From positions 199,345 to 263,344 of the forward strand of contig NZ_KE159748.1 in the NCBI RefSeq assembly GCF_000403455.2: DNA of 64,000 bases, read 5' to 3'. The notes beneath the pieces were generated by a model that saw only the letters and a list, made by a program, of their open reading frames with translations, made no database searches and was not told the origin of the DNA. Shown here one piece after another: positions 8,507 through 19,955 of the stretch (its first letter is position 1; every line of letters starts with the position of its first letter). The position numbers were made by a program, and so were the translations under genes. The stretch is from Dorea sp. 5-2. GTDB taxonomy: Bacteria; Bacillota; Clostridia; Lachnospirales; Lachnospiraceae.

Positions 8507-8835
8507 ATGACGCCTGATGGATATTTTTCCAAAACTTTTCCAGGCAATTGCATTTTTGATGCTGCAGGAGAAGCAGGGAGTCCGTGAGTTAGGAGGAGAG
8601 CTTAGTAAAATTATATACCAGGAGGAAAGCGGGCGTACTATGAAAAAATGGTGAATCATGCAATCAGCTGGCTTGAACAATCCCATATCATGTCGCAAAG
8701 ACTGCGGACAGACTGTTAGAAGATGGTAAGCTTGATTATCTGTATCTTCTAAAAGGGGATATGAAAGGCGGAACTTATGCCGCCTTCATTTGGCACAAAT
8801 CTCCCACAAAATGGAAGTATGACAGGATCAACTAA
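8507..8835 (+). pseudogene. Broken gene of unknown family, at least two frameshifts
   Basis: Coding sequence can be followed across three frames: MTPDGYFSKTF from 8507, then AIAFLMLQEKQGVRELGGELSK to a stop after MKKW near 8655, then YHVAKTADRLLEDGKLDYL and TYAAFIWHKSPTKW to a stop at 8833-8835. Each piece has clean codon use, so this looks like one former protein of about 105-110 residues. I do not recognise the family. Its end overlaps the convergent permease gene by 4 bases. Confidence 0.6.
8765..8786 (-). terminator. Possible terminator of the ABC exporter operon
   Basis: AAGGCGG and CCGCCTT form a 7-bp stem with an 8-base loop, just downstream of the permease stop on the minus strand. 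The T-run that follows is weak, so the call is tentative. Confidence 0.4.
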
Positions 8836-9983
8836 GCACTTTGCCGTAACCGTGAGATCACCATGGCGACCCCAAGGATCGCAGCAGCAAATAAGACCTG
8901 CATCCCGTAACACGTATAGAGGGACGCCTGCTGTGCAGAACTTAAGGAGCTGTTATTTGCCAGAAGCCCAGTGGCGACTTCATACCAGTAAGCAGGAAGA
9001 AACTGTGCGAAGGTCCGTACGCCCTTTCCTAGTATCTCCAGATCAACGAATACGCCGCACAGGAAAGACATACCAAGGGATACCACATTGACCACCGGGC
9101 TGAGTGCTTCCTCGCTGTGCACCAGCGTTCCGATCAGGAAAGACAGCGACAGCGCAACCAGCGTCATGAGGAAACTGTTGAGCATGTAGTAAGGCATGTT
9201 GGGGTCGTTGGTAAATGTGCTCCCATACATCAGGAACGGCATAAGGGTACAGATGCCGTAGACGGCGCCCCCGACCGTGGCAAATCCCAGGATCAGCTGT
9301 AAGTTCTGGCTGCGTGCAGGAACTGCCGAGCACATCATCCGTCTCTTCACATCCTGGTTGTGGAAGGCGATCATGATGTAACTCATAGAATAGCAGAGGA
9401 TGGAGATCAGGATATAGGGCATATACTGATACATAAAAGCATGAAGCGGCTGTACCCCGCCGAAACCATTCTTGTCGATGAGCGTCACTTCTGCTTTGTC
9501 CGTGCAGTTGTCAATGACACTTTGGACGGCGTCAGAGAGTGGAAATCCGCTCCTTGTCATGATCCGTACGTCATTCATGAATGTATTGATCTGCTGATCC
9601 ACATAGAATCCGCTGTTGCTGCCCGGAACCTTCGTCACCGGAAGCGCCTCGTCCCCATAAAGGCATCGTTGTTCAACATCTTCCGGAATGGTCACAACAT
9701 AGTAGATTTCCCGATAGAATATGCGATCCTGGATAATAGCAGGGTCATTGGGAAGATCCACCAACGTATGGTACTGGCTGAGGTAATCCGTAAGTCCTTC
9801 GGCAAGCCTGCCGCCGTCCTGGTCGATCACGGCGATATCCAGGCTGACCTGCTCAAATTCATCCATATTTCCCCCGGTTGCCTTCTGGACCAGGACTGCT
9901 ATGGACAGAAAGATGATGAGGTACAGGATCACCATACGGATATTTCTCTTTGTGATCGTAAGAAATCCTCTATATACTGTCAT
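8832..9983 (-). CDS. ABC-2 type exporter permease
   Basis: A 383-residue membrane protein. One membrane segment lies near the N-terminus (ILYLIIFLSIAVLVQK, about 17-32), then an external domain of about 150 residues, then five or so segments in the C-terminal half (YILISILCYSMSYIMIAF, AVYGICTLMPFLMYG, FLMTLVALSLSFLIG and others). This is the layout of ABC2_membrane_3 permeases. It should pair with the neighbouring permease and the ATPase to export an unknown substrate. The start has GGAGG 7 bases upstream and overlaps the preceding permease gene by 14 bases. Confidence 0.85.
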   Translation of the reverse strand: MTVYRGFLTITKRNIRMVILYLIIFLSIAVLVQKATGGNMDEFEQVSLDIAVIDQDGGRLAEGLTDYLSQYHTLVDLPNDPAIIQDRIFYREIYYVVTIPEDVEQRCLYGDEALPVTKVPGSNSGFYVDQQINTFMNDVRIMTRSGFPLSDAVQSVIDNCTDKAEVTLIDKNGFGGVQPLHAFMYQYMPYILISILCYSMSYIMIAFHNQDVKRRMMCSAVPARSQNLQLILGFATVGGAVYGICTLMPFLMYGSTFTNDPNMPYYMLNSFLMTLVALSLSFLIGTLVHSEEALSPVVNVVSLGMSFLCGVFVDLEILGKGVRTFAQFLPAYWYEVATGLLANNSSLSSAQQASLYTCYGMQVLFAAAILGVAMVISRLRQSA

Positions 9984-11112
9984 AACGTTCCCTCCTTATG
10001 CCTAAAAATGCGACTGTTAGAAGCAATGTACTCATCACGGCGAGAATCACAAGGCATCTGGTAAACCGTTCCATGTCGTTATAGATGCCCATGCAGTAAA
10101 ATGCGTCGCTTAGGACTGCCGCCGGATTGATGCGGTTGATGATGGGGCAGTGAAGTTCAATGATATTCTTCATATTGCCGAACATCAATCCCGCCAGGAA
10201 GCCGGGGAACAGTGTAAATAGTACGCAGACGCCGATCTTCATTCCATAGGATATCCGGGCGAGACATCCTATGGCGACACCCAGGCAGACGCCGATCATG
10301 CTGCCCATGAAATCTACCAGAAGCAGGGCGCCGACGTCGTTTCCCAGACTGATCCCAAGCACATGGGTAATATACAGGCACAGGATCAGGATATTGAAAA
10401 AATGGATGATGAATAGTACAGTCATGTCGATCAGGATCAGGGTAAGCTTATGTGTCGGCGTAATGCTGCGCCTTGCGCCAAGCGCCGATATATTCGCCTG
10501 CCCGTCTATGCTTGACTGGACGCCTAAGAATGCTCCGGAGAGGCAGGCATAGGCGACTAACGCAAAAAAATACTGGACATTGGGGTTTAAGTCTTTGCCG
10601 CCAAGGGAAACCTCGGCAGTCGTATTCCGGTAATCATTCATAGCGTCTAAGGCGTCCGGAAGTTTCTCCGGATGGGTCATGGCAATCTCGCGGAACATGG
10701 CGGCATTCTGGTTGTAGCTTTCCAGAACGGATGTCAGGATACTCTCGTTGAGGCCGTTCTTAGCAACAGTCAGGGAAGGAGTGTCTCTGACATAGAAGAT
10801 ACCGGAGATGGTCTCTTCATTCAGTGCACTAAGCGCTTCTGATTCCGTGGAAATATCCTGGATGTCCAGCGTCTCGCCGTCCATCTGTGTCAGGAAGCCT
10901 TCAAAGGCTTGGGCATTTTCCGACGGATCCGTATCTTTGACCACGGCGACCTTGATCTTATCCCAGCGGGATTCTCCCGTGCTTTCAAGCCCGGCGCTTC
11001 CGAAAGACAGGTAGAAGAGAGTGCCGAGTATGATCGGGAATAAAAGCGCCCAGAACATATTCGAGGAATTCCGTATGGTCTGTACGAAACGATATCTGAA
11101 TAAATGCAACAT
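9970..11112 (-). CDS. ABC-2 type exporter permease
   Basis: A 380-residue paralogue of the next permease in the operon: an N-terminal membrane segment (MFWALLFPIILGTLFYLSFG), a large external domain (about 45-180) and a C-terminal membrane block that ends LLLTVAFLGIRRERY. The two permeases likely form a heterodimer. GGAGG precedes the ATG. It lies 12 bases after the ATPase gene. The substrate is unknown; the closeness to the lanthipeptide region is noted but there is no shared promoter element. Confidence 0.85.
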   Translation of the reverse strand: MLHLFRYRFVQTIRNSSNMFWALLFPIILGTLFYLSFGSAGLESTGESRWDKIKVAVVKDTDPSENAQAFEGFLTQMDGETLDIQDISTESEALSALNEETISGIFYVRDTPSLTVAKNGLNESILTSVLESYNQNAAMFREIAMTHPEKLPDALDAMNDYRNTTAEVSLGGKDLNPNVQYFFALVAYACLSGAFLGVQSSIDGQANISALGARRSITPTHKLTLILIDMTVLFIIHFFNILILCLYITHVLGISLGNDVGALLLVDFMGSMIGVCLGVAIGCLARISYGMKIGVCVLFTLFPGFLAGLMFGNMKNIIELHCPIINRINPAAVLSDAFYCMGIYNDMERFTRCLVILAVMSTLLLTVAFLGIRRERYDSI

Positions 11113-11124
11113 TCCTCATTCCTC

Positions 11125-12069
11125 CTAATCTCTTAATTCTTTGCCTGTGATCTCAAGGAAAACGTCGTTGAGAGTGGGCAGTTCCGAGAAGACTCTGCCG
11201 AAACGGACGTCCTTCTCCTGTAAATAATTCAGGAGGCGCACCAGGTTGTGCCTTGCGGCGCCGAGCCGTATCTTTAATATCTGGTCTTCATAGCTTACGT
11301 CGAAGACGTGGGGAAGTTCCCGGATTCCGGAAAGCAAAGTTTCGTCTAATGCGATGGCTTCGATGGTGATGGTTTCGCCGGTCTTGATCATCTGTTTCAA
11401 TTCTTCTGTGGTTCCCGTTGCCAGCACATGTCCGTGGTCGATGATGGCGATGCGGGTGCAGATCTGTTCTACCTCTTCCATATAGTGAGAGGTGTAGATG
11501 ATGGTGGAACCCTGCCGGTTCAGCTCTACGATCCCTTCCAGGATCTTATTGCGGCTCTGCGGGTCTACGGCAACGGTAGGTTCATCCATGATGATAAGCC
11601 TGGGTTTGTGGACGATGCCGCAGGCGATGTTGAGCCTTCTTAACAGGCCGCCGGAGAGCTTCTTCGGGCGCATTTTCGTAAAGTCTTCTAACCCTGTAAA
11701 GGCAATCGCTTCCTCGACGAGCTGACGCCGTTTTGCCTTGTCCCGGATGTACAGGCCGCAGAAATAGTCGATATTCTCACGGACAGTCATCTGTTCGAAT
11801 ACGGCGACATTCTGCATCACGACTCCGATCTGCCGCTTGATGTCGTAGCTGTTAGGGGTCATGTTTTTGCCGAATATGGTGATGGTGCCTTTGTCGTACC
11901 GAAGCAGTGCAAGCAGGCAGTTGATGGCAGTGGTCTTGCCGGAGCCGTTAGGCCCGAGTAGCCCGAAGATCTCTCCTTCCTGTATGGTCAGATTCAGGTG
12001 GTCAAGCGCCACCAGGTTCTGATACCTTTTCACCAGATTTTCTATCCGGATAATATTGGTTGACTGCAT
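11125..12069 (-). CDS. ABC transporter ATP-binding protein
   Basis: A 314-residue cytoplasmic ATPase, first gene of the three-gene exporter operon. Walker A GLLGPNGSGKTT (about 35-46), the Q-loop VVMQNVAVFEQM, the signature KLSGGLLRRL, Walker B LIIMDEPTVAVDPQ and the switch histidine in YTSHYMEEVE are all intact. The C-terminal 80 residues resemble the regulatory tail of drug or Na+ exporter ATPases (CcmA/NatA type). I start at 12069, because CCAGGAGGCG lies 6-8 bases before this ATG, and an upstream in-frame ATG at 12090 has no ribosome site. Confidence 0.9.
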   Translation of the reverse strand: MQSTNIIRIENLVKRYQNLVALDHLNLTIQEGEIFGLLGPNGSGKTTAINCLLALLRYDKGTITIFGKNMTPNSYDIKRQIGVVMQNVAVFEQMTVRENIDYFCGLYIRDKAKRRQLVEEAIAFTGLEDFTKMRPKKLSGGLLRRLNIACGIVHKPRLIIMDEPTVAVDPQSRNKILEGIVELNRQGSTIIYTSHYMEEVEQICTRIAIIDHGHVLATGTTEELKQMIKTGETITIEAIALDETLLSGIRELPHVFDVSYEDQILKIRLGAARHNLVRLLNYLQEKDVRFGRVFSELPTLNDVFLEITGKELRD

Positions 12070-12210
12070 AGAATCGCCTCCTGGTTTCATAATGATGTAG
12101 TCTGGATTATATTGTATTTATAGTTAGTATAATGTACGGATGTCTATGTTGGTAGTGTCAGGTGTCAGAAGAAGATATGACAAATGTAATGTTGAATACT
12201 TTCGATTTTG

Positions 12211-12272
12211 GAAGCCAAAAACATAGTTTTCACGGACAATATGCTGCGGCAGAATATGATTACTGTTATAAT
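12211..12272 (+). promoter_or_regulatory. LytTR-type element D with -10 box
   Basis: Half-sites AGCCAA (12213-12218) and GGACAA (12234-12239) are in direct repeat, 21 bases apart, with an A-run then a T-run between them. TATAAT lies at 12267-12272, 27 bases after GGACAA. It is one of four related elements in 12.2-19.9 kb; this copy has one extra base between half-sites. It places the start codon of the next gene at 12313 rather than upstream. Confidence 0.65.
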
Positions 12273-12312
12273 GCATGGCATATATTATGTGGATTTTATA
12301 AAGGAGTATGAA

Positions 12313-12873
12313 ATGAAGAGATACAATGGTATGGAGGTAGAGGGTATTAAATTGGGAGTCCGTAACATAGAGGACTTGGGATTATCAAGTAAGGATGCAT
12401 TGGAGAAAAGTGTCGTCTGGCTCAGGGAGAAGTATGAGATAACAGGTGATGTAAGGTATCTGGACAAAGCTGTATGGCATATCTATGCTTATCTGGAAAT
12501 GGGATATCCGTATGAAAGCGCGAAGGAAGAATTTCAGGCTGTATTGGATGCGCTTGGAGAGAAAGAAGAAGAGGTGTTCCCGAAACGAAGCTGGGGAAGT
12601 AAGAAGGTTCCCTTGAAGAAGATGCGGATTAACCAGTTGTTGGGTAGATGGAACCCGGGCTTACAGTCGATGAAAATATCTGACGCGGTGGAGGATATCA
12701 TAGAAAAAGCCAGAAACAGGCAGGTCGGAGAATACACATATCATTGCGGAAGGGTGATCAAACAGGATGGAGAAAATACTTTGTGGGAGAATACCTGTAG
12801 GCTCTATGTCCGAGATGAGGAAGTTGTGTTCTATAATGTAAATAAGGGTAAATATTATATTCTTGCAGAATGA
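12313..12873 (+). CDS. Hypothetical protein, member of the local LytTR regulon
   Basis: A 186-residue soluble protein with no signal peptide, membrane segment or family I recognise. The N-terminal two thirds looks helical (EKSVVWLREKYEITG, YAYLEMGYPYESAKEEFQAVL). The C-terminal 50 residues look like a small beta fold (YTYHCGRVIKQDG, TCRLYVRDEEVVFYNV). The frame is open further upstream, but AAGGAG sits 6 bases before the ATG at 12313 and the promoter element ends at 12272, so this start is preferred. It may have a role in immunity or regulation of the lanthipeptide locus, but that is only guilt by promoter. Confidence 0.75.
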   Translation: MKRYNGMEVEGIKLGVRNIEDLGLSSKDALEKSVVWLREKYEITGDVRYLDKAVWHIYAYLEMGYPYESAKEEFQAVLDALGEKEEEVFPKRSWGSKKVPLKKMRINQLLGRWNPGLQSMKISDAVEDIIEKARNRQVGEYTYHCGRVIKQDGENTLWENTCRLYVRDEEVVFYNVNKGKYYILAE

Positions 12874-12894
12874 AGCGCGGATTTGGGGCTTTTC

Positions 12895-12954
12895 ACGGTC
12901 AAAAATGAATTTTTAAGGACAAAGGGATGAAAAAATTCCAATTTGTGGTATTCT
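12895..12954 (+). promoter_or_regulatory. LytTR-type element A with -10 box
   Basis: Half-sites GGTCAA (12897-12902) and GGACAA (12917-12922), offset 20 bases, with AAAAAT and ATTTTT between them. TATTCT at 12949-12954 is 26 bases after GGACAA. There is no good -35 box, as expected for an activator-dependent promoter. It precedes the regulator gene, so autoregulation is likely. Confidence 0.7.
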
Positions 12955-12997
12955 TATAGGTGTAAGGTTGGATGGAATCGACCGGAAGAGAGGGCAA

Positions 12998-13714
12998 ATG
13001 ATGAATATTGCACTTATAGATGATGAGGCAGCAATTTTAGGAAATGTCAGAAAGTGTGTTGAGAATGAGATTGTCCCGCAGGATGAGGCGAGCCTTTTTA
13101 CTTATACACGGGCGAAAGATTTTCTTCAGGCAATGGAACAGGGGTATGAGTTTGATATCCTGGTTTCGGACATTGATATGCCGGATATGGGCGGACTGGA
13201 GTTGGGGAAGCAAATACAAGAAAAAGGCAGCGGTCCATATCTGGTATTCCTGACGGCGTATCTTGAGTATGCGGCGGAGAGTTATATCATAGAGGCATAC
13301 CAATATATTCTCAAGGAAGATATGGAAAAGAGGCTGCCGCCTATCCTGAGACAGTTGATTGACCGCGTGAAGAAGGAGAAACAACAATTCAGGATGATTG
13401 GCACACCGACAAGTAAGGTGCGGGTGTATTATAGGGATATGATATACATAGAGAAGGAAAAGGGATCAAAATATATTTGCTACATAACAGAATATGGTAT
13501 ATATAAAGAAAGAATTCCATTAAATCAACTGAGTCAGGAACTTGTAAGTGATGAATTTATCTTAGTTGAACGTAGATACATTATAAATGTTTCACATATT
13601 GCCAGTATGAAAGATGGTATGATTCTGATGGATAATGAGGCGAAGATATTTGTTAATAGAATCAGCTTCAAGAAAATAAAAGAGCAGATTAGTCTGTACA
13701 GGGGGAACCTGTAA
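12998..13714 (+). CDS. LytTR-family response regulator (AgrA-like)
   Basis: A 238-residue regulator. The receiver domain (1-120) has IALIDDE (acidic pocket), the phosphoacceptor in VSDIDMPD (D58), the conserved Thr in VFLTAYLEYA and the Lys in YILKED. The C-terminal LytTR DNA-binding domain (about 140-238) includes YIEKEKGSKYICY and VERRYIINVSHI. LytTR proteins bind direct repeats about two helical turns apart, which matches the four elements found nearby. Its gene overlaps the kinase gene start (TAATGG). The start is the first of two ATGs after GAGAGGGC. Confidence 0.92.
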   Translation: MMNIALIDDEAAILGNVRKCVENEIVPQDEASLFTYTRAKDFLQAMEQGYEFDILVSDIDMPDMGGLELGKQIQEKGSGPYLVFLTAYLEYAAESYIIEAYQYILKEDMEKRLPPILRQLIDRVKKEKQQFRMIGTPTSKVRVYYRDMIYIEKEKGSKYICYITEYGIYKERIPLNQLSQELVSDEFILVERRYIINVSHIASMKDGMILMDNEAKIFVNRISFKKIKEQISLYRGNL

Positions 13715-14043
13715 TGGGAATTGAGGCTCTTCTTATAGGAATTTCTCTTTTTGAAGTGGGGATGTTGTACTGGCTGTTATGTGGGACTGTATTAGAGAAA
13801 AGATATTTTCAAAAAAAAGATTGGGTAATTCTATGTGTGAATATTGTTAGTGTTGGTGTGGGTGAAGGGATAAATCGTAGTTTGCTTTTTTTCTCGCAGA
13901 ATATTTTTCTTGTTAGTGTTGTATTTACATGCATATGTGTGGTTGCGATAAATGGACAGAATAAACTATTAAAAACAATAATAGTCATTTTGTACTATAC
14001 AATAGTAGCCTTGATAGATTTTTTGTTGCGTTTATGTGCATGA
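13714..14043 (+). CDS. AgrC-like sensor kinase, N-terminal membrane part (split by a frameshift)
   Basis: 109 residues comprising about four hydrophobic segments (LLIGISLFEVGMLYWLLC, VILCVNIVSVGVG, VSVVFTCICVVAI, TIIVILYYTIVALIDFLL). This is the first half of a GHKL sensor. The frame ends at 14043, while the next frame continues the same protein: reading -1 from the T6 tract at 14019-14024 gives DFFVAFMCMTVLRNEFENI without a break. So 13714-15020 is one kinase gene of about 435 codons with a single-frame shift. The zero-frame codons across the tract are T-TTT-TTG, a classic -1 slippery heptamer; mutation, phase variation and programmed slippage all remain possible. Confidence 0.7.
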   Translation: MGIEALLIGISLFEVGMLYWLLCGTVLEKRYFQKKDWVILCVNIVSVGVGEGINRSLLFFSQNIFLVSVVFTCICVVAINGQNKLLKTIIVILYYTIVALIDFLLRLCA

Positions 14044-15020
14044 CAGTATTAAGAAATGAGTTTGAAAATATAGTTTATGTATATGCAAATTCGTTCATGG
14101 AAAGTATGCTTTTTATTTGTGCAAGGCTTATAATAGCTGTTTGTATATGTCTGGTTGTCAAGCAAAGGTTTAACGAGTCATATATACGTGAATATCAGAG
14201 GCTATTATTGGTTATTATGATAATTATGTGTCTGGTGTTAAGGCGTTATCAGATAGAAATTGTAAGAATGATGTATGAGGGCAGGGCACAGGAAGGAGGA
14301 ACAACAGGACTTTCTCTTATGGGTGTTGTGCTGATTACACTTTTTACCGGAATCGTGTACTTGAAGAACAAGACGCTCGAGAAGGAAAAGGAATTGCTGA
14401 TTATGCGTGACACTATGGTGACACAAAAGTATACGGAATTAGAAAAAGCCATGGAAAAGAACCGGCAGTTATCCCATGATCTGAAGAACCATATATTGGT
14501 TTTAAAGCATTTTAAGATGGAAGAGGATTATGAAGGGATAGATAAATATATAGAAGAAATAGAACAGAATTTTTTTGATATAAAGAGAAGAGTCTGGACA
14601 GGAAGCCAGATCGCAGATATGATTCTGGAGCAGAAGAGAACCCTGGCAGAACAGGAAGGTATAACATTTACAATACAGGCAGTTCCGATTGCAAAGTGGA
14701 TGTTTGATGACAGTGAGACTTGTTCCCTGTTAGGAAATCTTCTGGACAATGCGATTGAGGCGAGTAGGAGAATAGACGATAATGTGGAAAAATGGGTATC
14801 TGTAAAGATAGAGAATCAAAAACAGTTATTATTTATAAAGATAGAAAATTCGGTCAGTGAGATACCAGTTATGAAAGATAAGAGACCTATTTCAGTTAAA
14901 CAGGATAAAATAAGACATGGATATGGTCTGAAAAGTGTGGAACGAATTGTGAACAAGTATGAGGGAATGATTACATACAAAGGCAAAGACAGAGCTTTTC
15001 AAGTAAAGCTTTTGTTTTGA
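14034..15020 (+). CDS. AgrC-like GHKL histidine kinase, catalytic part (split by a frameshift)
   Basis: 328 residues holding the last two or three membrane segments (SMLFICARLIIAVCICLVV, LLLVIMIIMCLVL, LMGVVLITLFTGIVYL) and the kinase core. The phosphoacceptor His is in QLSHDLKNHILVL, the N-box in LLGNLLDNAIEASRR, and the G-box in KIRHGYGLKSVERIV. This is the AgrC/HPK10 pattern. It should phosphorylate the adjacent LytTR regulator. There is no separate ribosome site before 14034, which supports its being the continuation of the 13714 frame. The probable signal is a peptide, perhaps the lanthipeptide itself; that is inference. Confidence 0.8.
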   Translation: MCMTVLRNEFENIVYVYANSFMESMLFICARLIIAVCICLVVKQRFNESYIREYQRLLLVIMIIMCLVLRRYQIEIVRMMYEGRAQEGGTTGLSLMGVVLITLFTGIVYLKNKTLEKEKELLIMRDTMVTQKYTELEKAMEKNRQLSHDLKNHILVLKHFKMEEDYEGIDKYIEEIEQNFFDIKRRVWTGSQIADMILEQKRTLAEQEGITFTIQAVPIAKWMFDDSETCSLLGNLLDNAIEASRRIDDNVEKWVSVKIENQKQLLFIKIENSVSEIPVMKDKRPISVKQDKIRHGYGLKSVERIVNKYEGMITYKGKDRAFQVKLLF

Positions 15021-15052
15021 TAAATATTAATAAAATGAAAGGAGGATGTGAT

Positions 15053-15202
15053 ATGCAAAAAGATTTAATTATGGATTATGCGGGAGACTTGTCTATGGAA
15101 CTTGAGGAAATAGAAAAGTTAATTCCGGATGAGGGACAAATGGAAAGTGCATATACACAGACTAAGATGTGTGCAACTTTGTTAACTCTATTGTGTTGTT
15201 GA
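15053..15202 (+). CDS. Class II lanthipeptide precursor (LanA)
   Basis: A 49-residue peptide behind a strong AAAGGAGG site 8 bases away. The leader has the acidic ELEEIEKLI motif (16-24) typical of LanM substrates. The C-terminal core has Thr35, Thr37, Thr42, Thr45 and Cys40, Cys48, Cys49, and ends TLLTLLCC. The CC end recalls the lacticin 481 / ruminococcin A group, but the rest of the core is shorter and different. No GG or GA processing site is visible; SAYT (32-35) is a possible cut region. It sits between the kinase and the LanM gene. Too short to be found by length alone; the call rests on leader motif, core composition and the neighbour. Confidence 0.8.
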   Translation: MQKDLIMDYAGDLSMELEEIEKLIPDEGQMESAYTQTKMCATLLTLLCC

Positions 15203-15325
15203 TCACAAGAAATGTGATAGGGCTGTTGTGAAATGATAGACTTATACCAATAGTATGAGTGTTAATTTTACAATGGCTTTTTTATTATAATTTTAAAGAA
15301 AGTTATGAATAGAAGAGGAAAAGGA

Positions 15326-17392
15326 ATGTTTTTTGAAGGATTTTATGAAGCATTGATTAAATCTGGACTCAATTTGTTGCAACAGAAAGTTCGAGATAAG
15401 AAATCTTTGGAAAGTATATTTCCAGATTTTAAAGAGCAGTTGGCACATCGTTTGCAGAATGTGTGTATCCGAACATTGATCGTAGAAATGCATGACTATG
15501 ATAACCGTGGAGATTTAAAGGGAAAAGATTCAAAAGAAAAATACGAATATTTTTGCAAGGAGATAATTAAAAAAGAGGAATTTATGCAAAGAACATTTGC
15601 ACGTTATCCGGTTCTATGCCAGTGCACAGAAGAAACAGTGAAGAATATGGCAGCATTTTATGCATACATCATAGAATGCTTTCAAAAGGATAGTCAGGCG
15701 ATACAACAGATGTTTTGCCAGGGGAAAGAGGTGCGAAGTATCCACAGGATAAAAGGTGGTTTTTCGGATGTACATAATAAGGGGCGGTGTGTGGTAAGGG
15801 TTCTATTGGATAACGAAGTAGAGATTCTGTACAAACCTCGATCAATGGATAATGAAAAGAGATATGCAGATATGCTGAAATGGTTGGTCAGAGAAACTGG
15901 GATTAGCCAATATGACTATGCAATCTTATCATATCCAGACCATAGCTGGTGCTCTATTGTCAGTTATGCATCCTGTGATTCGCAGAAGGAATTACAAGGC
16001 TATTATCAACGGATAGGCGTACATCTGTTTCTGGCATATCTGTTGGGAACGAAAGATTTGCATTGTGAGAATATCATCGCATTTGGCAGATACCCGGTAC
16101 TGATCGATCTGGAGACATTGACAAATATCCGCTATAACCGCAACCGAGTAACTGCAAATGATGAGATCTTCTATCAACTGTCACAATCCGTATTATATAC
16201 AGGGATTCTGCCGTTCTATCACTGGAATCAGGAAGGGAAAGGAGTCAACAGCAGTGTGGTAAGTGGTACGGCAGGACAGCAATATCCTTTTAAAGTTCCG
16301 GTGATCATTCATGGGGGAACTTCTGATATGAGGATTGCATATCGGTATCCGGAATCAGTGAAAAACCAGAACCTTGCAACGATAAGGGGAGAGTTTAGGG
16401 AGCCGTTGCAGTATATGGAGAACTTGCAAAAAGGATTTCGGGCGGCATATTTTGCGGTTATGAAGAAAAAAGAGGAATTCCGTATATTATTAGGGAGATT
16501 GAAAGGCTTGAAGTGCCGGTATCTGATGGCAGATACACAGCGTTACAGTATGGTTCTGTCGGGTTCCTATCATCCGGAACTGCTGAGAAATCAGGCGGAT
16601 CGGGAGCAATTTCTCTATTCTATGCAAAAGGGGAGGAAGCAGGACGAGAAAGAAATCGTGGATAGGGAAGTAAAGGCGTTATCAGGTGGTGATATTCCAT
16701 ATTTTTACTATAATATGGATGAAACGGATCTAAGAGATAGCCAGGGCGGGAGAATCAAAGCTTATTTTGCGTGTAGACCGATAGATCTGCTATATCAAAA
16801 AGTAGAAGAACTGTGTGAAAAAGATATGGGAAAACAGTGCGAATATATAGAACTTGCATTGGAGATGACGACCGATAGAACCGAACGGTTTATGAACGGA
16901 GTATACCGTTTAAAAGAATACAATATTTTGAAAATGGATAAGGCTGTAAAGTTAGCACGATTGAAGAAGAACATCGAGGTATTGACGGAACGTGTACTGC
17001 GAAATGTAGTATGGAACTGTGAGCATAATGAGGTGAGTTGGTATACGGTGCAGTTTTCTGGCGGGAGCAGTAAGAGCTGGTCGATTTGTCCGATGAATAT
17101 GTATCTGTACGACGGCTTAGCGGGAATGTTGTTGTTAATATATAGCTTGAAGAGGAAGGACAAGAGAGCGGAGATTGCCGATATTTATGAAAATCTGAAA
17201 AAAAGGCTGTTCCAATATACGGATGCAGGTTTACAGTCATTAGAACATCTTCAAACCCAGAATACGGGAATCTATGAAGGGGAAGGTTCGGTTATATATA
17301 TATACATACTTGCTGATGTATCAAGAGGGGGCGGGAGAGGAATATCTGGATTATGCGCAAAGGCATGTCCGAATCATAGAGCAATTAATTGA
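15326..17392 (+). CDS. LanM lanthipeptide synthetase, dehydratase part (frameshifted)
   Basis: About 688 residues of a class II lanthipeptide synthetase. The DUF4135 dehydratase domain is clear: an ATP-site lysine in EILYKPRSMD, the catalytic loop GTKDLHCENII and LIDLETL. It would phosphorylate and eliminate Ser/Thr of the precursor. The start of the LanC cyclase domain is present (YLYDGLAGMLLLIYSL). The true protein continues in another frame from the (TA)6 tract at 17293-17304; after that the last 29 residues here are out of frame. One added TA unit restores a single open frame to 18110. The ATG at 15326 has AGAGGAAAAGG before it; 15305 is an alternative. Confidence 0.88.
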   Translation: MFFEGFYEALIKSGLNLLQQKVRDKKSLESIFPDFKEQLAHRLQNVCIRTLIVEMHDYDNRGDLKGKDSKEKYEYFCKEIIKKEEFMQRTFARYPVLCQCTEETVKNMAAFYAYIIECFQKDSQAIQQMFCQGKEVRSIHRIKGGFSDVHNKGRCVVRVLLDNEVEILYKPRSMDNEKRYADMLKWLVRETGISQYDYAILSYPDHSWCSIVSYASCDSQKELQGYYQRIGVHLFLAYLLGTKDLHCENIIAFGRYPVLIDLETLTNIRYNRNRVTANDEIFYQLSQSVLYTGILPFYHWNQEGKGVNSSVVSGTAGQQYPFKVPVIIHGGTSDMRIAYRYPESVKNQNLATIRGEFREPLQYMENLQKGFRAAYFAVMKKKEEFRILLGRLKGLKCRYLMADTQRYSMVLSGSYHPELLRNQADREQFLYSMQKGRKQDEKEIVDREVKALSGGDIPYFYYNMDETDLRDSQGGRIKAYFACRPIDLLYQKVEELCEKDMGKQCEYIELALEMTTDRTERFMNGVYRLKEYNILKMDKAVKLARLKKNIEVLTERVLRNVVWNCEHNEVSWYTVQFSGGSSKSWSICPMNMYLYDGLAGMLLLIYSLKRKDKRAEIADIYENLKKRLFQYTDAGLQSLEHLQTQNTGIYEGEGSVIYIYILADVSRGGGRGISGLCAKACPNHRAIN

Positions 17393-18110
17393 GGGAGATG
17401 TGAAATATGATCTGCTTAATGGAAATGCCGGGGCAATCCAGGCATTGTTGCTGTTGTATGAAATCATTCCAGATAAAATATATCTTGAAATAGCAGAAAG
17501 TGCAGCGGATATGTTGGAAAAGTCAGCAAAAAAACAAGAATGTGGGATTGGCTGGATAACGGAGGAAGGAATGCCGCCCATGGCGGGAGCGGCACATGGG
17601 AATGGCGGGATATTGGTGGCTTTTTTACACTTGTGGCATGTGACGTCGAAAGACAAATATGAACAGTTGGCGGAGAAAATCTGGGAATATGAAGAATCCT
17701 TATATAATCCGGAGATGAATAACTGGATGGATGTGCGTGAGGGGAAACAAAAGATAGATGATATAGGGGCTATGGCATGGTGTCATGGAGCGCCGGGGAT
17801 CTTGTATTCAAGGTTGAAGTGCTATAAATATGTAAAAGATCAGAAATGGAAGGAGCGCCTTAGAAAAGATATGTGCAGAGCATATAAAAAATTGAGGGAA
17901 TATTGGGGAAGAGATAGTTGGTGTTTGTGCCATGGGATATGCGGGAATCTATGGATATTGGAAAAGGCATCAGAGCTTCTTGGGGATAAAAAAGAGATAT
18001 TTAATTATTATCCGGCGAAGGAGGATGTTTATTTATTACCGCAGGAGAAGGAGAATCCAGGACTCATGAATGGATATGGAGGGATTTTATTGTATTTAAT
18101 GCGAAGATAA
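17274..18110 (+). CDS. LanM lanthipeptide synthetase, cyclase part (frameshifted)
   Basis: The remaining LanC-like cyclase domain, about 270 residues after the frameshift. It carries GAAHGNGG, the zinc-site motifs WCHGAPG and LCHGICGN, and a typical C-terminal MNGYGGILLYL. In the joined protein this domain would add the cysteine thiols to dehydrated residues. Its first dozen residues here are the out-of-frame reading of the upstream domain. It lacks its own convincing ribosome site, so in the present state it may not be made. Joined length would be about 930 residues, within the LanM range. Confidence 0.85.
   Translation: MKGKVRLYIYTYLLMYQEGAGEEYLDYAQRHVRIIEQLIEGDVKYDLLNGNAGAIQALLLLYEIIPDKIYLEIAESAADMLEKSAKKQECGIGWITEEGMPPMAGAAHGNGGILVAFLHLWHVTSKDKYEQLAEKIWEYEESLYNPEMNNWMDVREGKQKIDDIGAMAWCHGAPGILYSRLKCYKYVKDQKWKERLRKDMCRAYKKLREYWGRDSWCLCHGICGNLWILEKASELLGDKKEIFNYYPAKEDVYLLPQEKENPGLMNGYGGILLYLMRR
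17293..17304 (+). repeat. (TA)6 microsatellite at the LanM frameshift
   Basis: Six TA units lie exactly where the LanM frame changes. Insertion of one unit (or loss of two) gives the continuous reading SVIYIYTYLLMYQEGAG. This is the usual behaviour of a slipped-strand contingency tract, although six units is short for high-rate switching. Confidence 0.7.
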
Positions 18111-18164
18111 ATAGTAGGTGATTATATAATTTTTTAGTCTTGTTAGTGTGAAAAGAAAATTTTG

Positions 18165-18213
18165 ACAGCTAAAAATGTATTTTTATGGACAATAGGTGGC
18201 ATGATATTATAAT
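18165..18213 (+). promoter_or_regulatory. LytTR-type element B with a closer -10 box
   Basis: Half-sites AGCTAA (18167-18172) and GGACAA (18187-18192), offset 20 bases. TATAAT (18208-18213) is 15 bases after GGACAA, 11 closer than in elements A and C, that is, one helical turn. TGGACA plus a 16-base spacer also makes a passable sigma-A promoter. No clear gene follows. Confidence 0.6.
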
Positions 18214-18413
18214 AAGATTGACTTATCGAACAAATAATGATAGATGGTGGGCTTGAGAGAAATACACTAAAAAAGGGTAGACTTACCCCTTGGTGCTATC
18301 AGCTGCTTTTGATAGGGAGTTCGCGTTGTATAGTGCAAAAAAGGAGGCTGTCTATATCTCGACAGCCCCATATTCTGTGCTATTCCCCAATATGTTTTAG
18401 TGCTTACCAACGG
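18214..18413. other. Gene-less stretch after element B
   Basis: A promoter points into this stretch, yet I find no frame with a ribosome site and sensible content. The longest plus frame (18237-18419) is rich in unlikely residues and runs through the opposing terminator. A small hairpin CTATCA-N8-TGATAG lies at about 18296-18315. The region may be the scar of a deleted gene, or it may encode a short RNA. Confidence 0.4.
18338..18367 (-). terminator. Terminator of the secreted-pair operon
   Basis: On the minus strand GGCTGTC, an 8-base loop and GACAGCC are followed by TCCTTTTTTG. It lies 47 bases downstream of the stop at 18414. Confidence 0.8.
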
Positions 18414-19160
18414 CTATAAAAGATCTAGAAGATTTTCCGAACATTTTGTTATGCTTGTTATCAGTCGCTCTTTTGCAGCGTTAAAATACAATTCTGCATT
18501 TTTATTGTGAGAGTCAGAAATACGATTAAGGCTGTTATCGACACTGTATCCGTGAGTTTTCTGCTCCGTATAACTGAGCAGGAAACTAAGTTCATCGTTC
18601 CATTGAGCAGCCTGCCCGGTATGACCGATTCTCTTCCATGCATTGACGAGAGACTGAGTTCCGGAAATAAAGTTAAATCTTTCTCGAAGCCCTTTTTCCT
18701 GTCCTTGCATACAATCGTAAGGATTACTTATTGTTTTGTATTCTCCTGGCTTGAAATGAGCTAATGCCTGTAATTCAAGGGTGCTTGTATTATATGGATT
18801 GATTTGTTTTACGTTAATCTTTTCTTCAAAGTACATTCCATGCTCATCTACACCTTTTGCGATCAATACAGGTGAGTCGTCCGTAGATTCGGCGGCATGA
18901 TAAAATTTATACCCACAATTGCCTGTACTATGATAAAAAGAAATGGAGTTACCGTCTTTTAAAGCATATTTACCTGGTATTTTCTTTATGTCATCCCAAG
19001 TAATCCCTTTTCCAACAGAGGTTTGCTCAATATAAGCCACGTTACCAGATATTGTGGTTTTGAATGCTTCACTTGAACTATTTTTTCTGCTTCTATTCGA
19101 GTCCTGGTATCTTGATTGACCTGTTGTTGAAGAATAATTTCTATAAAAATTATCTATCAT
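18414..19160 (-). CDS. Hypothetical protein of the LytTR regulon, second gene of pair
   Basis: A 248-residue protein with no signal peptide or membrane segment. The N-terminus is rich in Ser, Asn, Arg and Tyr (NFYRNYSSTTGQSRYQD). The middle shows ISGNVAYIEQTSVGKGITWDDI, and the C-terminal half is helical (NAELYFNAAKERLITSI). I do not recognise a family. The ATG overlaps the stop of the upstream secreted-protein gene by 4 bases, with GGAGG before it, so the two are translationally coupled. Element C, upstream of the pair, puts it under the same control as the lanthipeptide genes. Confidence 0.8.
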   Translation of the reverse strand: MIDNFYRNYSSTTGQSRYQDSNRSRKNSSSEAFKTTISGNVAYIEQTSVGKGITWDDIKKIPGKYALKDGNSISFYHSTGNCGYKFYHAAESTDDSPVLIAKGVDEHGMYFEEKINVKQINPYNTSTLELQALAHFKPGEYKTISNPYDCMQGQEKGLRERFNFISGTQSLVNAWKRIGHTGQAAQWNDELSFLLSYTEQKTHGYSVDNSLNRISDSHNKNAELYFNAAKERLITSITKCSENLLDLL

Positions 19161-19609
19161 TCAAAATTTTCCTCCGTTAGATTAAAAGTATAATTCAGAT
19201 TCCATATTTTTGGAGTACCATTAGTTGAATTAAAAACTGCTTCCATTTTGTAAGCGCCAGGATGGTATATTTTTTGAGATTTATAATACATTTTCCAGCC
19301 TATGGCGTAAGTGTTAGAAGAGTTCATTATTCCATCTGTTTTATAGGCAATCAATTTTGTTCCGGCTAAAGTTACGCTTCCTGGTCCGGTTCCCATTTCT
19401 TCAATAACAAAATAAATGCATCTGTCTGTTTTATCGTATCGCCAACTTGGTAGTACCCTAAGACTTGTAATTGGTGGAGCCGCAACCCTAAGATTAGATT
19501 GAGGTTCCACATTATTAGAAGTTTCAGCGGCGAACGAAGTTACGGACATTCCCATTAACATGGCTAACATTAATAATAAACTTAATACTTTTTTCATTTT
19601 GATTCCCAT
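19157..19609 (-). CDS. Small secreted protein of the LytTR regulon
   Basis: A 150-residue exported protein. The signal peptide is obvious (KKVLSLLLMLAMLMGMSVTSFAAE, cut near residue 28). The mature part of about 120 residues looks like an all-beta domain (LRVLPSWRYDKTDRCIYFV, YAIGWKMYYKSQKIYHPGAY). No family is recognised. I start at MGIKMKK; an in-frame ATG at 19672 with AAAGGAG close by would add 21 residues ahead of the signal peptide and is a real alternative. It is first in an operon with the 18414 gene and lies about 200 bases downstream of the -10 box of element C. Confidence 0.82.
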   Translation of the reverse strand: MGIKMKKVLSLLLMLAMLMGMSVTSFAAETSNNVEPQSNLRVAAPPITSLRVLPSWRYDKTDRCIYFVIEEMGTGPGSVTLAGTKLIAYKTDGIMNSSNTYAIGWKMYYKSQKIYHPGAYKMEAVFNSTNGTPKIWNLNYTFNLTEENFE

Positions 19610-19810
19610 AGATATAGTTTTCCTTTCAGTAAAATCTGATAAAGATTTTTTTACACTACTTTTTTGTTTCATACTTCTCCTTTCATTTATTAGATATTTT
19701 CCCAAATTATTTAACACATTAACATTTATGTGCTATTGGGAAAGCACAGCGCCAAGATTTTTTGCCTAATTAGTACAGAGCTGTTAAACGGAAAAATATC
19801 TTACATTTTT

Positions 19811-19870
19811 ATTATAGTACTTTAGGGGAAAAACTCAATCGATTGTCCTTCAAAATTGATTTTTGGCTGT
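19811..19870 (-). promoter_or_regulatory. LytTR-type element C with -10 box
   Basis: Read on the minus strand: half-sites AGCCAA and GGACAA (19843-19848), offset 20 bases, with AAAAAT and ATTTT between. TATAAT (19811-19816) is 26 bases after GGACAA, the same distance as in element A. It drives the secreted-protein pair. Confidence 0.7.
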
Positions 19871-19955
19871 CAAAATTTCCAATTGCAAACATAAAAAAGC
19901 TGAAAGAGTGAATTCATAAGGCGGTGCTATTCCCTAAAAGAGGGAGCATTTGCCT

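Follow-up and report, generated by a model that had tools for sequence, protein, structure and literature searches.

The window analyzed here, a stretch of 64,000 nucleotides from Dorea sp. 5-2 (contig NZ_KE159748.1, positions 199,345 to 263,344), contains a locus in which five genes adjoin on the forward strand: p12313, which belongs to an orphan family, an AgrA-like LytTR regulator, a GHKL kinase, a lanthipeptide precursor (LanA) and a LanM enzyme. Comparison with related loci makes it reasonably probable that these genes form an Agr-like autoinducing circuit in which a class II lanthipeptide is the presumed signal. This reading is favored because the same chassis carries either AgrB-AgrD or LanA-LanM, because the LanA-LanM pair is without the marks of a bacteriocin (a LanT transporter, a GG site in the leader and an acidic residue in the core), and because likely regulator sites precede both the operon and cassettes of genes for secreted proteins. 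Loci, genomes and contigs are referred to by L, G and C numbers where they need to be told apart.

The preliminary description of this DNA had placed a regulator, a kinase, a 49-residue LanA and a LanM side by side, and open reading frames and profile searches bear this out, the expected domains being found in each (Table 1); the genes are present but not intact, as kinase and LanM each lie in two frames. As in Agr, the window has an AgrA-like LytTR regulator and an AgrC-like multi-transmembrane GHKL kinase (PF14501), the AgrC model NF046015 itself giving 1.9e-7, far under its cut-off; the kinases of relatives have 5-9 hydrophobic segments (n = 13) and the H-box pattern occurs in 11 of these 13. 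A LanM with DUF4135 and LANC_like in its two frames, together with a LanA whose core holds Ser/Thr and Cys, identifies the peptide genes as class II. The pair p19157-p18414 (19597-18414) comes after LanM on the opposite strand. Neither AgrB (tblastn) nor AgrD (AgrD-like pattern search) was found in the window. For p12313 there is no Pfam or NCBIfam family and a PDB search gave only designed or unrelated chains; its AlphaFold2 model (pLDDT 73 from 7 close sequences) predicts a helical N part and a beta C part.

Table 1. Features of the locus, numbered from the first letter of the window (PWM, position weight matrix score).
Feature	Position	Strand	Remarks
P1, LytTR-type element 5' of p12313	12207..12240	+	PWM 16.2; TATAAT about 26 bp downstream
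p12313, 186 aa, orphan family, first gene of the module	12313..12873	+	
P2, element 5' of the regulator	12890..12923	+	PWM 45.1
AgrA-like response regulator, receiver and LytTR	13001..13714	+	PF00072 9e-14, PF04397 3e-11
Kinase, N-terminal membrane piece, broken frame	13714..14043	+	resembles N part of the 434-436-aa kinases of relatives
Kinase, C-terminal piece in another frame, HDxxNH box and GHKL domain	14034..15020	+	PF14501 2.7e-22
LanA, 49 aa, core ..TQTKMCATLLTLLCC	15053..15202	+	61-63% identity to LanA of L029, L031
LanM, dehydratase piece, broken frame	15305..17392	+	DUF4135 1.8e-98, TIGR03897 5e-161
LanM, cyclase piece in another frame	17274..18110	+	LANC_like 2e-50; WCHG and later CHG zinc motif
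P3, element 3' of LanM, no gene after it	18160..18193	+	PWM 46.9
p18414, 248 aa, without recognizable signal peptide, putative output partner	18414..19160	-	homologues behind P3 in L034, L035, L077, L078
p19157, secreted, predicted Ig-like beta sandwich	19157..19597	-	
P3', element 5' of the p19157-p18414 pair	19842..19875	-	PWM 48.1; TATAAT about 26 bp downstream

Homologues of p12313 occur in 16 of 397 genomes of the family, and 17 loci outside the genus were examined, 15 from a first search (L060-L074) and two from a later profile search (L137, L138). LytTR and GHKL genes follow p12313 on the same strand in 16 of the 17, the exception, L074, being a fragment, and LanM lies further on in 11 (L060, which is cut by an insertion sequence, L061, L062, L064-L067, L069, L070, L072 and L138). 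A further locus, L063, stops at a contig edge, and a second contig of that genome begins or ends with LanA-LanM (L093/L104), whilst L138, found after the module had been defined, has the full order of p12313, regulator, kinase, LanA and LanM. Counted by genome, LanM is present in 13 of 16 with p12313 as against 19 of 381 without it (Fisher 2e-13). The suggestion that p12313 travels with LytTR-LanM loci is thus upheld across the family, and by these sequence comparisons p12313 is a core part of the module. A divergent gene for an XRE-type regulator, recognized by eye, adjoins p12313 in L060, L063, L064, L065 and L138 and lies near it in L071 and L074; it may control the operon.

In a few genomes the position of the signal genes is taken by those of Agr. 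Loci L068 (G227) and L137 (G684) have AgrB (PF04647, 7.5e-34 and 9.6e-39) and an AgrD-like peptide directly before p12313, and L073 (G029, a genome 78% complete) has an AgrD-like peptide there and no AgrB. The AgrD model TIGR04223 gives 2.5e-7 in L068, over its cut-off, and 0.0035 in L137 and 0.024 in L073, both under it. No LanM was found genome-wide in G227 and G029, nor in the locus of G684, whose whole genome was not searched for LanM. By tblastn, AgrB was found in 2 of 33 loci (L068 and L137); the AgrD-like pattern was found in L068, L073 and L137, in their shorter copies L052, L056 and L132, and in one unlike, probably chance, peptide of L102. In both kinase and regulator trees L068, L073 and L137 group with members of the module (a 27-kinase group has support of 98/98), and in the best trees they are nested, though not significantly so (p-AU 0.18 and 0.24). 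The parsimonious reading of these sequences is a swap of signal, in which LanA-LanM would do the job of AgrB-AgrD.

Of the 38 LanM sequences in a midpoint-rooted tree, made without the split window LanM and the LanM of L060/L107 that is cut by an insertion sequence and before L138 was found, 21 form one clade (82/86); the LanM of L103, which is linked to a LanT, stands beside it, the 22 together being supported at 100/99. As a descriptive contrast, a search with a profile made from one LanT found LanT in the locus of none of the 21 as compared with 15 of the 17 other LanMs (Fisher 9e-9), the two misses lying on one 6.4-kb contig, and LytTR and GHKL genes lie within 4.5 kb upstream on the same strand in 17 of 21 as compared with 1 of 17. 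The four misses in the clade are L031 (kinase only), L034 (where the stretch is cut; L078 shows both of the genes missing there), L104 (contig end) and L124. Genome-wide, 2 of 20 carriers of a clade LanM (G374, G026) have a clear C39 transporter, taken as a frame longer than 600 aa that matches at E below 1e-15, versus 10 of 10 genomes with other LanMs; weak C39-like matches in 7 of the other 18 carriers comprise six short frames and one of 892 aa (G065, E 3e-6). G357, G120 and G379, none of which has a clear LanT, each consist of a single contig. The window agrees with the preliminary description here, with no LanT in the locus and 0 matches to the C39 peptidase profile in its own 6.14-Mb genome. 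Clade LanMs are 926-1061 aa long, mostly with LanA beside them and with no AgrB in their loci, and 19 of 21 keep the WCxG and CHG zinc motifs (L061 is cut by a contig end and L034 is without WCxG), so the enzyme looks able to cyclize. In the same genus L103 (G011:C20) is a usual class II cluster of LanA (..SGAG leader, CTFTVEC core), LanM and C39 LanT. The preliminary description had called a LytTR circuit that also drives a secreted protein and a cytoplasmic partner an unusual organization for a lanthipeptide locus, and this part needs revision: LytTR/GHKL genes also lie near the LanT-bearing clusters L110, L120 and L122 and are not rare near lanthipeptide genes in the family, their position directly upstream on the same strand being the trait of the LanT-less clade. 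What is unusual, and goes further than was first proposed, is that a LanT-less LanM clade is tied to the circuit and that AgrB-AgrD replaces LanA-LanM in a few genomes.

The precursor peptides also depart from those of typical lantibiotics. The 21 LanAs of module loci, trimmed to a likely start, are 42-51 aa long with a leader like AGDLxxELEExExL, and a GG/GA cleavage site was found in none of the 21 leader parts. All end in CC, two with one extra residue, but most were picked by that ending. The motif [ST]x[ST]xxC lies near the end in 18 of the 21; the residue before the ring-A Cys is acidic in two of these 18 (E in L117, D in L072), and loss of the acidic residue weakens binding to lipid II. 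The window LanA has TQTKMC, with Met before Cys, rather than a lipid II motif of the TxSx[ED]C type. The class II motif appears as TVSx[ED]C in PMC13289728.

A recurrent promoter element had been described at four sites in the window, and this was confirmed. The 34-bp element, TTTTGACAGYCAAAAATNNATTTTTAHGGACAAT, is strong at 12890+, 18160+ and 19875- and weaker at 12207+; it reads as a direct repeat of TTTTKACRG with a period of 20, the layout of LytTR sites such as those of AgrA and ComE. All four score above the best random match of 14.1 (50 sequences of 64 kb at 35% GC, controlled for base composition only), but only 12207 is an independent match because the matrix was built from pattern matches that included the three strong sites. 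With up to 3 mismatches the pattern occurs at 5 places in the 6.14-Mb genome, in 4 of 16 chosen relatives and in 2 of 397 family genomes, both of the window's genus, each with a reversed control of 0. The 34 bp of P2 recur unchanged before the paralogous locus on contig C56. Across loci of the genus the matrix (score limit 8) finds the element at three fixed places, before p12313 (P1), before the regulator (P2) and after the kinase or LanM (P3), some loci not having all three above the limit; P1 copies of relatives score 10.7-24.2, several under the random 14.1 yet at the same place. No relatives were met in which the genes are unlinked and the element is missing.

It is at P3 that the cassettes vary. 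The element noted before a gene-less stretch is that at 18160, and indeed no gene follows; it corresponds to the place after LanM where L029 and L031 have the element and then a secreted-protein gene. The cassettes comprise p19157 and p18414 in the window (19875-), a 359-aa secreted and a 457-aa protein in L029, DUF4879 proteins in L031 and L038, and p18414 relatives in L034 and L035, with an apparent insertion in L076 and no clear gene in L033. Elsewhere in the genus, relatives of the p18414/p19157 pair are located 3' of LanM or are preceded by this element, in keeping with the co-regulation first proposed for them. The elements at 18160 and 19875 face each other around the pair, and in L033 one P3 is likewise directed towards the 3' end of the pair, as would result from an inversion of the cassette relative to LanM.

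Outside the p12313-LytTR clade of the genus 21 operon upstream regions were scanned, 15 before p12313 and 6, among them those of L105 and L106 from the genus, before the regulator. L061, L062, L064, L065 and L117 have exact direct repeats with a period of 20-22, and L116, L072, L063, L066, L071, L105 and L119 have repeats with one mismatch, whilst 9 of the 21 regions had none; the repeat sequences differ from lineage to lineage. In two unrelated genera the repeat returns at the end of LanM: a second copy with 3 mismatches lies 8 bp past LanM in L062, where 0.2 copies with 6 or fewer mismatches are expected per locus, and one with 5 mismatches overlaps the final bases of LanM in L116 (0.05 expected). 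The product of the gene that follows looks secreted or membrane-anchored in both, the frame in L116 beginning within an apparent signal peptide. The search detected no such copy in L064, L117 or L061, whose contig ends, and L065 and L072 gave weak matches at the level of chance; among the one-mismatch loci only L116 and L072 were searched. The first gene after a clade LanM passes a simple signal-peptide rule in 10 of 21. A repeat of the L062 type with one mismatch was also seen in another genus (G424:C59:39937-39967, L125), away from the LanM contig of that genome.

Gene order, co-occurrence, conservation of the sites, absence of LanT and the AgrB-AgrD alternative are directly visible in the DNA, and they are consistent with the following circuit. 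LanM would dehydrate and cyclize the short core of LanA, and the product, alone or still bearing its leader, would activate the multi-transmembrane GHKL kinase, which, to judge from its family, would phosphorylate the LytTR regulator. The regulator would bind the direct repeats of about 20-bp period at P1 and P2, giving positive feedback, and at P3, after LanM, switching on the secreted-protein cassette; the sites are seen, and binding and its direction are presumed. The product of p12313 may be a cytosolic core accessory of the kinase-regulator pair, kept with either kind of signal gene. More speculatively, and on balance doubtfully, LanA-LanM and AgrB-AgrD could be interchangeable signal makers on one kinase-regulator-p12313 chassis. 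The lanthipeptide would then need neither an exporter nor a leader protease of its own and might reach the kinase from inside the membrane of the cell that makes it, p12313 serving as a helper that binds the peptide or the kinase.

The resemblance to Agr (AgrBDCA) extends to the multi-transmembrane GHKL kinase with its HDxxNH box, the LytTR regulator and the direct repeats before the own operon and effectors, and some loci of the window's kinase family carry AgrB and AgrD; the window system differs in having LanA-LanM for AgrB-AgrD, an extra first gene, p12313, and no dedicated exporter that could be found. The core shape TxS/TxxC...T..CC of lacticin 481/mersacidin-like peptides is shared by the module, and the nearest LanT-bearing LanM, that of L103, has such a cluster; module LanAs, however, have a core of about 17 residues, no GG/GA and a ring-A acidic residue that is mostly lost. 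In the nisin (NisRK) and subtilin systems, which have LanT, a kinase senses the lanthipeptide and induces the genes for it, as is presumed for the module. Theirs are OmpR/HisKA systems according to PMC10663231, whereas the window has LytTR/GHKL, class II genes, no LanT and secreted-protein targets. No account was found of a LytTR-GHKL-LanA-LanM signaling unit, or of LanA-LanM replacing AgrB-AgrD, in a literature search that had many subscription papers and all bioRxiv preprints outside its scope.

Several observations count against an Agr-like circuit with a lanthipeptide signal, and the conclusion should be considered with caution. The swap rests on three loci, two with AgrB and a third whose AgrD-like peptide stands without it, and in L068 the contig stops behind the kinase. 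L137, found after the module was defined, has AgrB-AgrD, p12313, regulator and kinase but no LanM, and the trees, in which the nesting is not significant, cannot tell in which direction the swap went. Support for the 21-LanM clade is moderate, and its contrasts are only descriptive, since gene context was used along with the tree to name its members. There are also circuits without LanA-LanM (Sporofaciens L038 and L076, which have the element), a circuit with neither kind of signal gene (L071) and a clade LanM without kinase or regulator (L124). No LanA was found in L105, and the ring-A Cys is missing in L062, L106 and L138, so ring patterns differ. In L064 and L065 the divergent XRE-type gene, seen by eye, shares the intergenic space and could own the repeat. 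Finally, a peptide that is read at the cell surface would first have to be exported, and no dedicated exporter was found.

There is the possibility, which we regard as unlikely, that the product is an ordinary lantibiotic under LytTR control which is lethal to competitors and is exported by a transporter encoded away from the locus. The zinc motifs kept in most clade LanMs and the position of the LanT-bearing L103 beside the clade speak for it, and self-induction by lantibiotics is possible, nisin and bovicin being named in PMC10663231; set against this, a clear LanT is missing from 18 of 20 carrier genomes, the leader has no GG/GA site, the Glu/Asp of the class II motif is missing in 16 of 18, and AgrB-AgrD replaces LanA-LanM in some genomes. 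An improbable alternative of similar standing is that the kinase senses something else and that its outputs include LanA-LanM as well as the secreted proteins. The circuits with P3 but without LanA-LanM in L038 and L076, and L071 with no signal gene, fit such an arrangement, but in other genera LanA-LanM lies directly after the kinase while the genes after LanM vary, and the replacement that was found, AgrB-AgrD, is a known signal maker. A very remote prospect is that LanM is a non-cyclizing effector like CA_C0082 of Clostridium acetobutylicum, the closest published case of a LanM-type gene linked to Agr genes. In PMC10301443 CA_C0082 is described as a truncated LanM-like Agr effector without a zinc motif that is not needed for the AgrD-derived signal, AgrB-AgrD being kept; both it and the clade LanMs stand beside Agr-type genes. 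Its homologues, however, are given there as 670-728 aa long and without the zinc motif, and every species but one has them behind a complete agr cluster, whereas clade LanMs are longer, mostly keep the motifs, generally have LanA beside them and have no AgrB in their loci.

A stronger contender, to which we would give rather less than an even chance, is that the locus in the window genome is a decaying relic that does nothing. The kinase is a single frame of 434-436 aa in relatives (L029, L034, L035), being split also in L037 and L038, and LanM a single frame of 926-1017 aa (L029, L031, L034, L035); the window copy is therefore broken or mis-sequenced in two genes, and the P3 at 18160 is without a gene. 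A second, paralogous module in the same genome (G000:C56:197061-202420, L029) is flanked by transposase-like genes, judged by eye, and its regulator has a stop. Yet the damage in the two copies is reversed, kinase and LanM of the C56 copy being one frame each, G004 carries an unbroken gene set, and the frame breaks could be sequencing error. That the two copies complement each other is only a possibility.

Eight named loci carry close relatives of p12313, two on a 287-kb plasmid of Sporofaciens musculi (G008:C1) and six in assemblies labeled Lachnospiraceae bacterium or uncultured Dorea. The plasmid loci, L037 and L038, are two p12313-LytTR-kinase-P3 copies, both with frame breaks, and no LanM was found in the whole G008 genome. 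Beside other LytTR/GHKL pairs of the genus (L039, L040, L041) lie p18414-like and other proteins without a signal peptide (MNINGIG.., MEVGFYTNNF..). ABC-2-like transporter genes (two permeases and one ATPase, by eye) lie at 8832-12090 of the window, divergent from p12313, and were not seen at the corresponding place of the C56 copy.

If the Agr-like circuit with a lanthipeptide signal holds, bacterial peptide signals of thiolactone and of lanthionine chemistry would be interchangeable on one receptor chassis. The orphan p12313 family gains a testable role, and the question is raised of how a lanthipeptide acts in genomes without LanT. The LanM genes of the gut would then divide into those that make bacteriocins and those that make signals, told apart by LanT, the GG site and the acidic residue, and some predicted gut lantibiotics may be signals.

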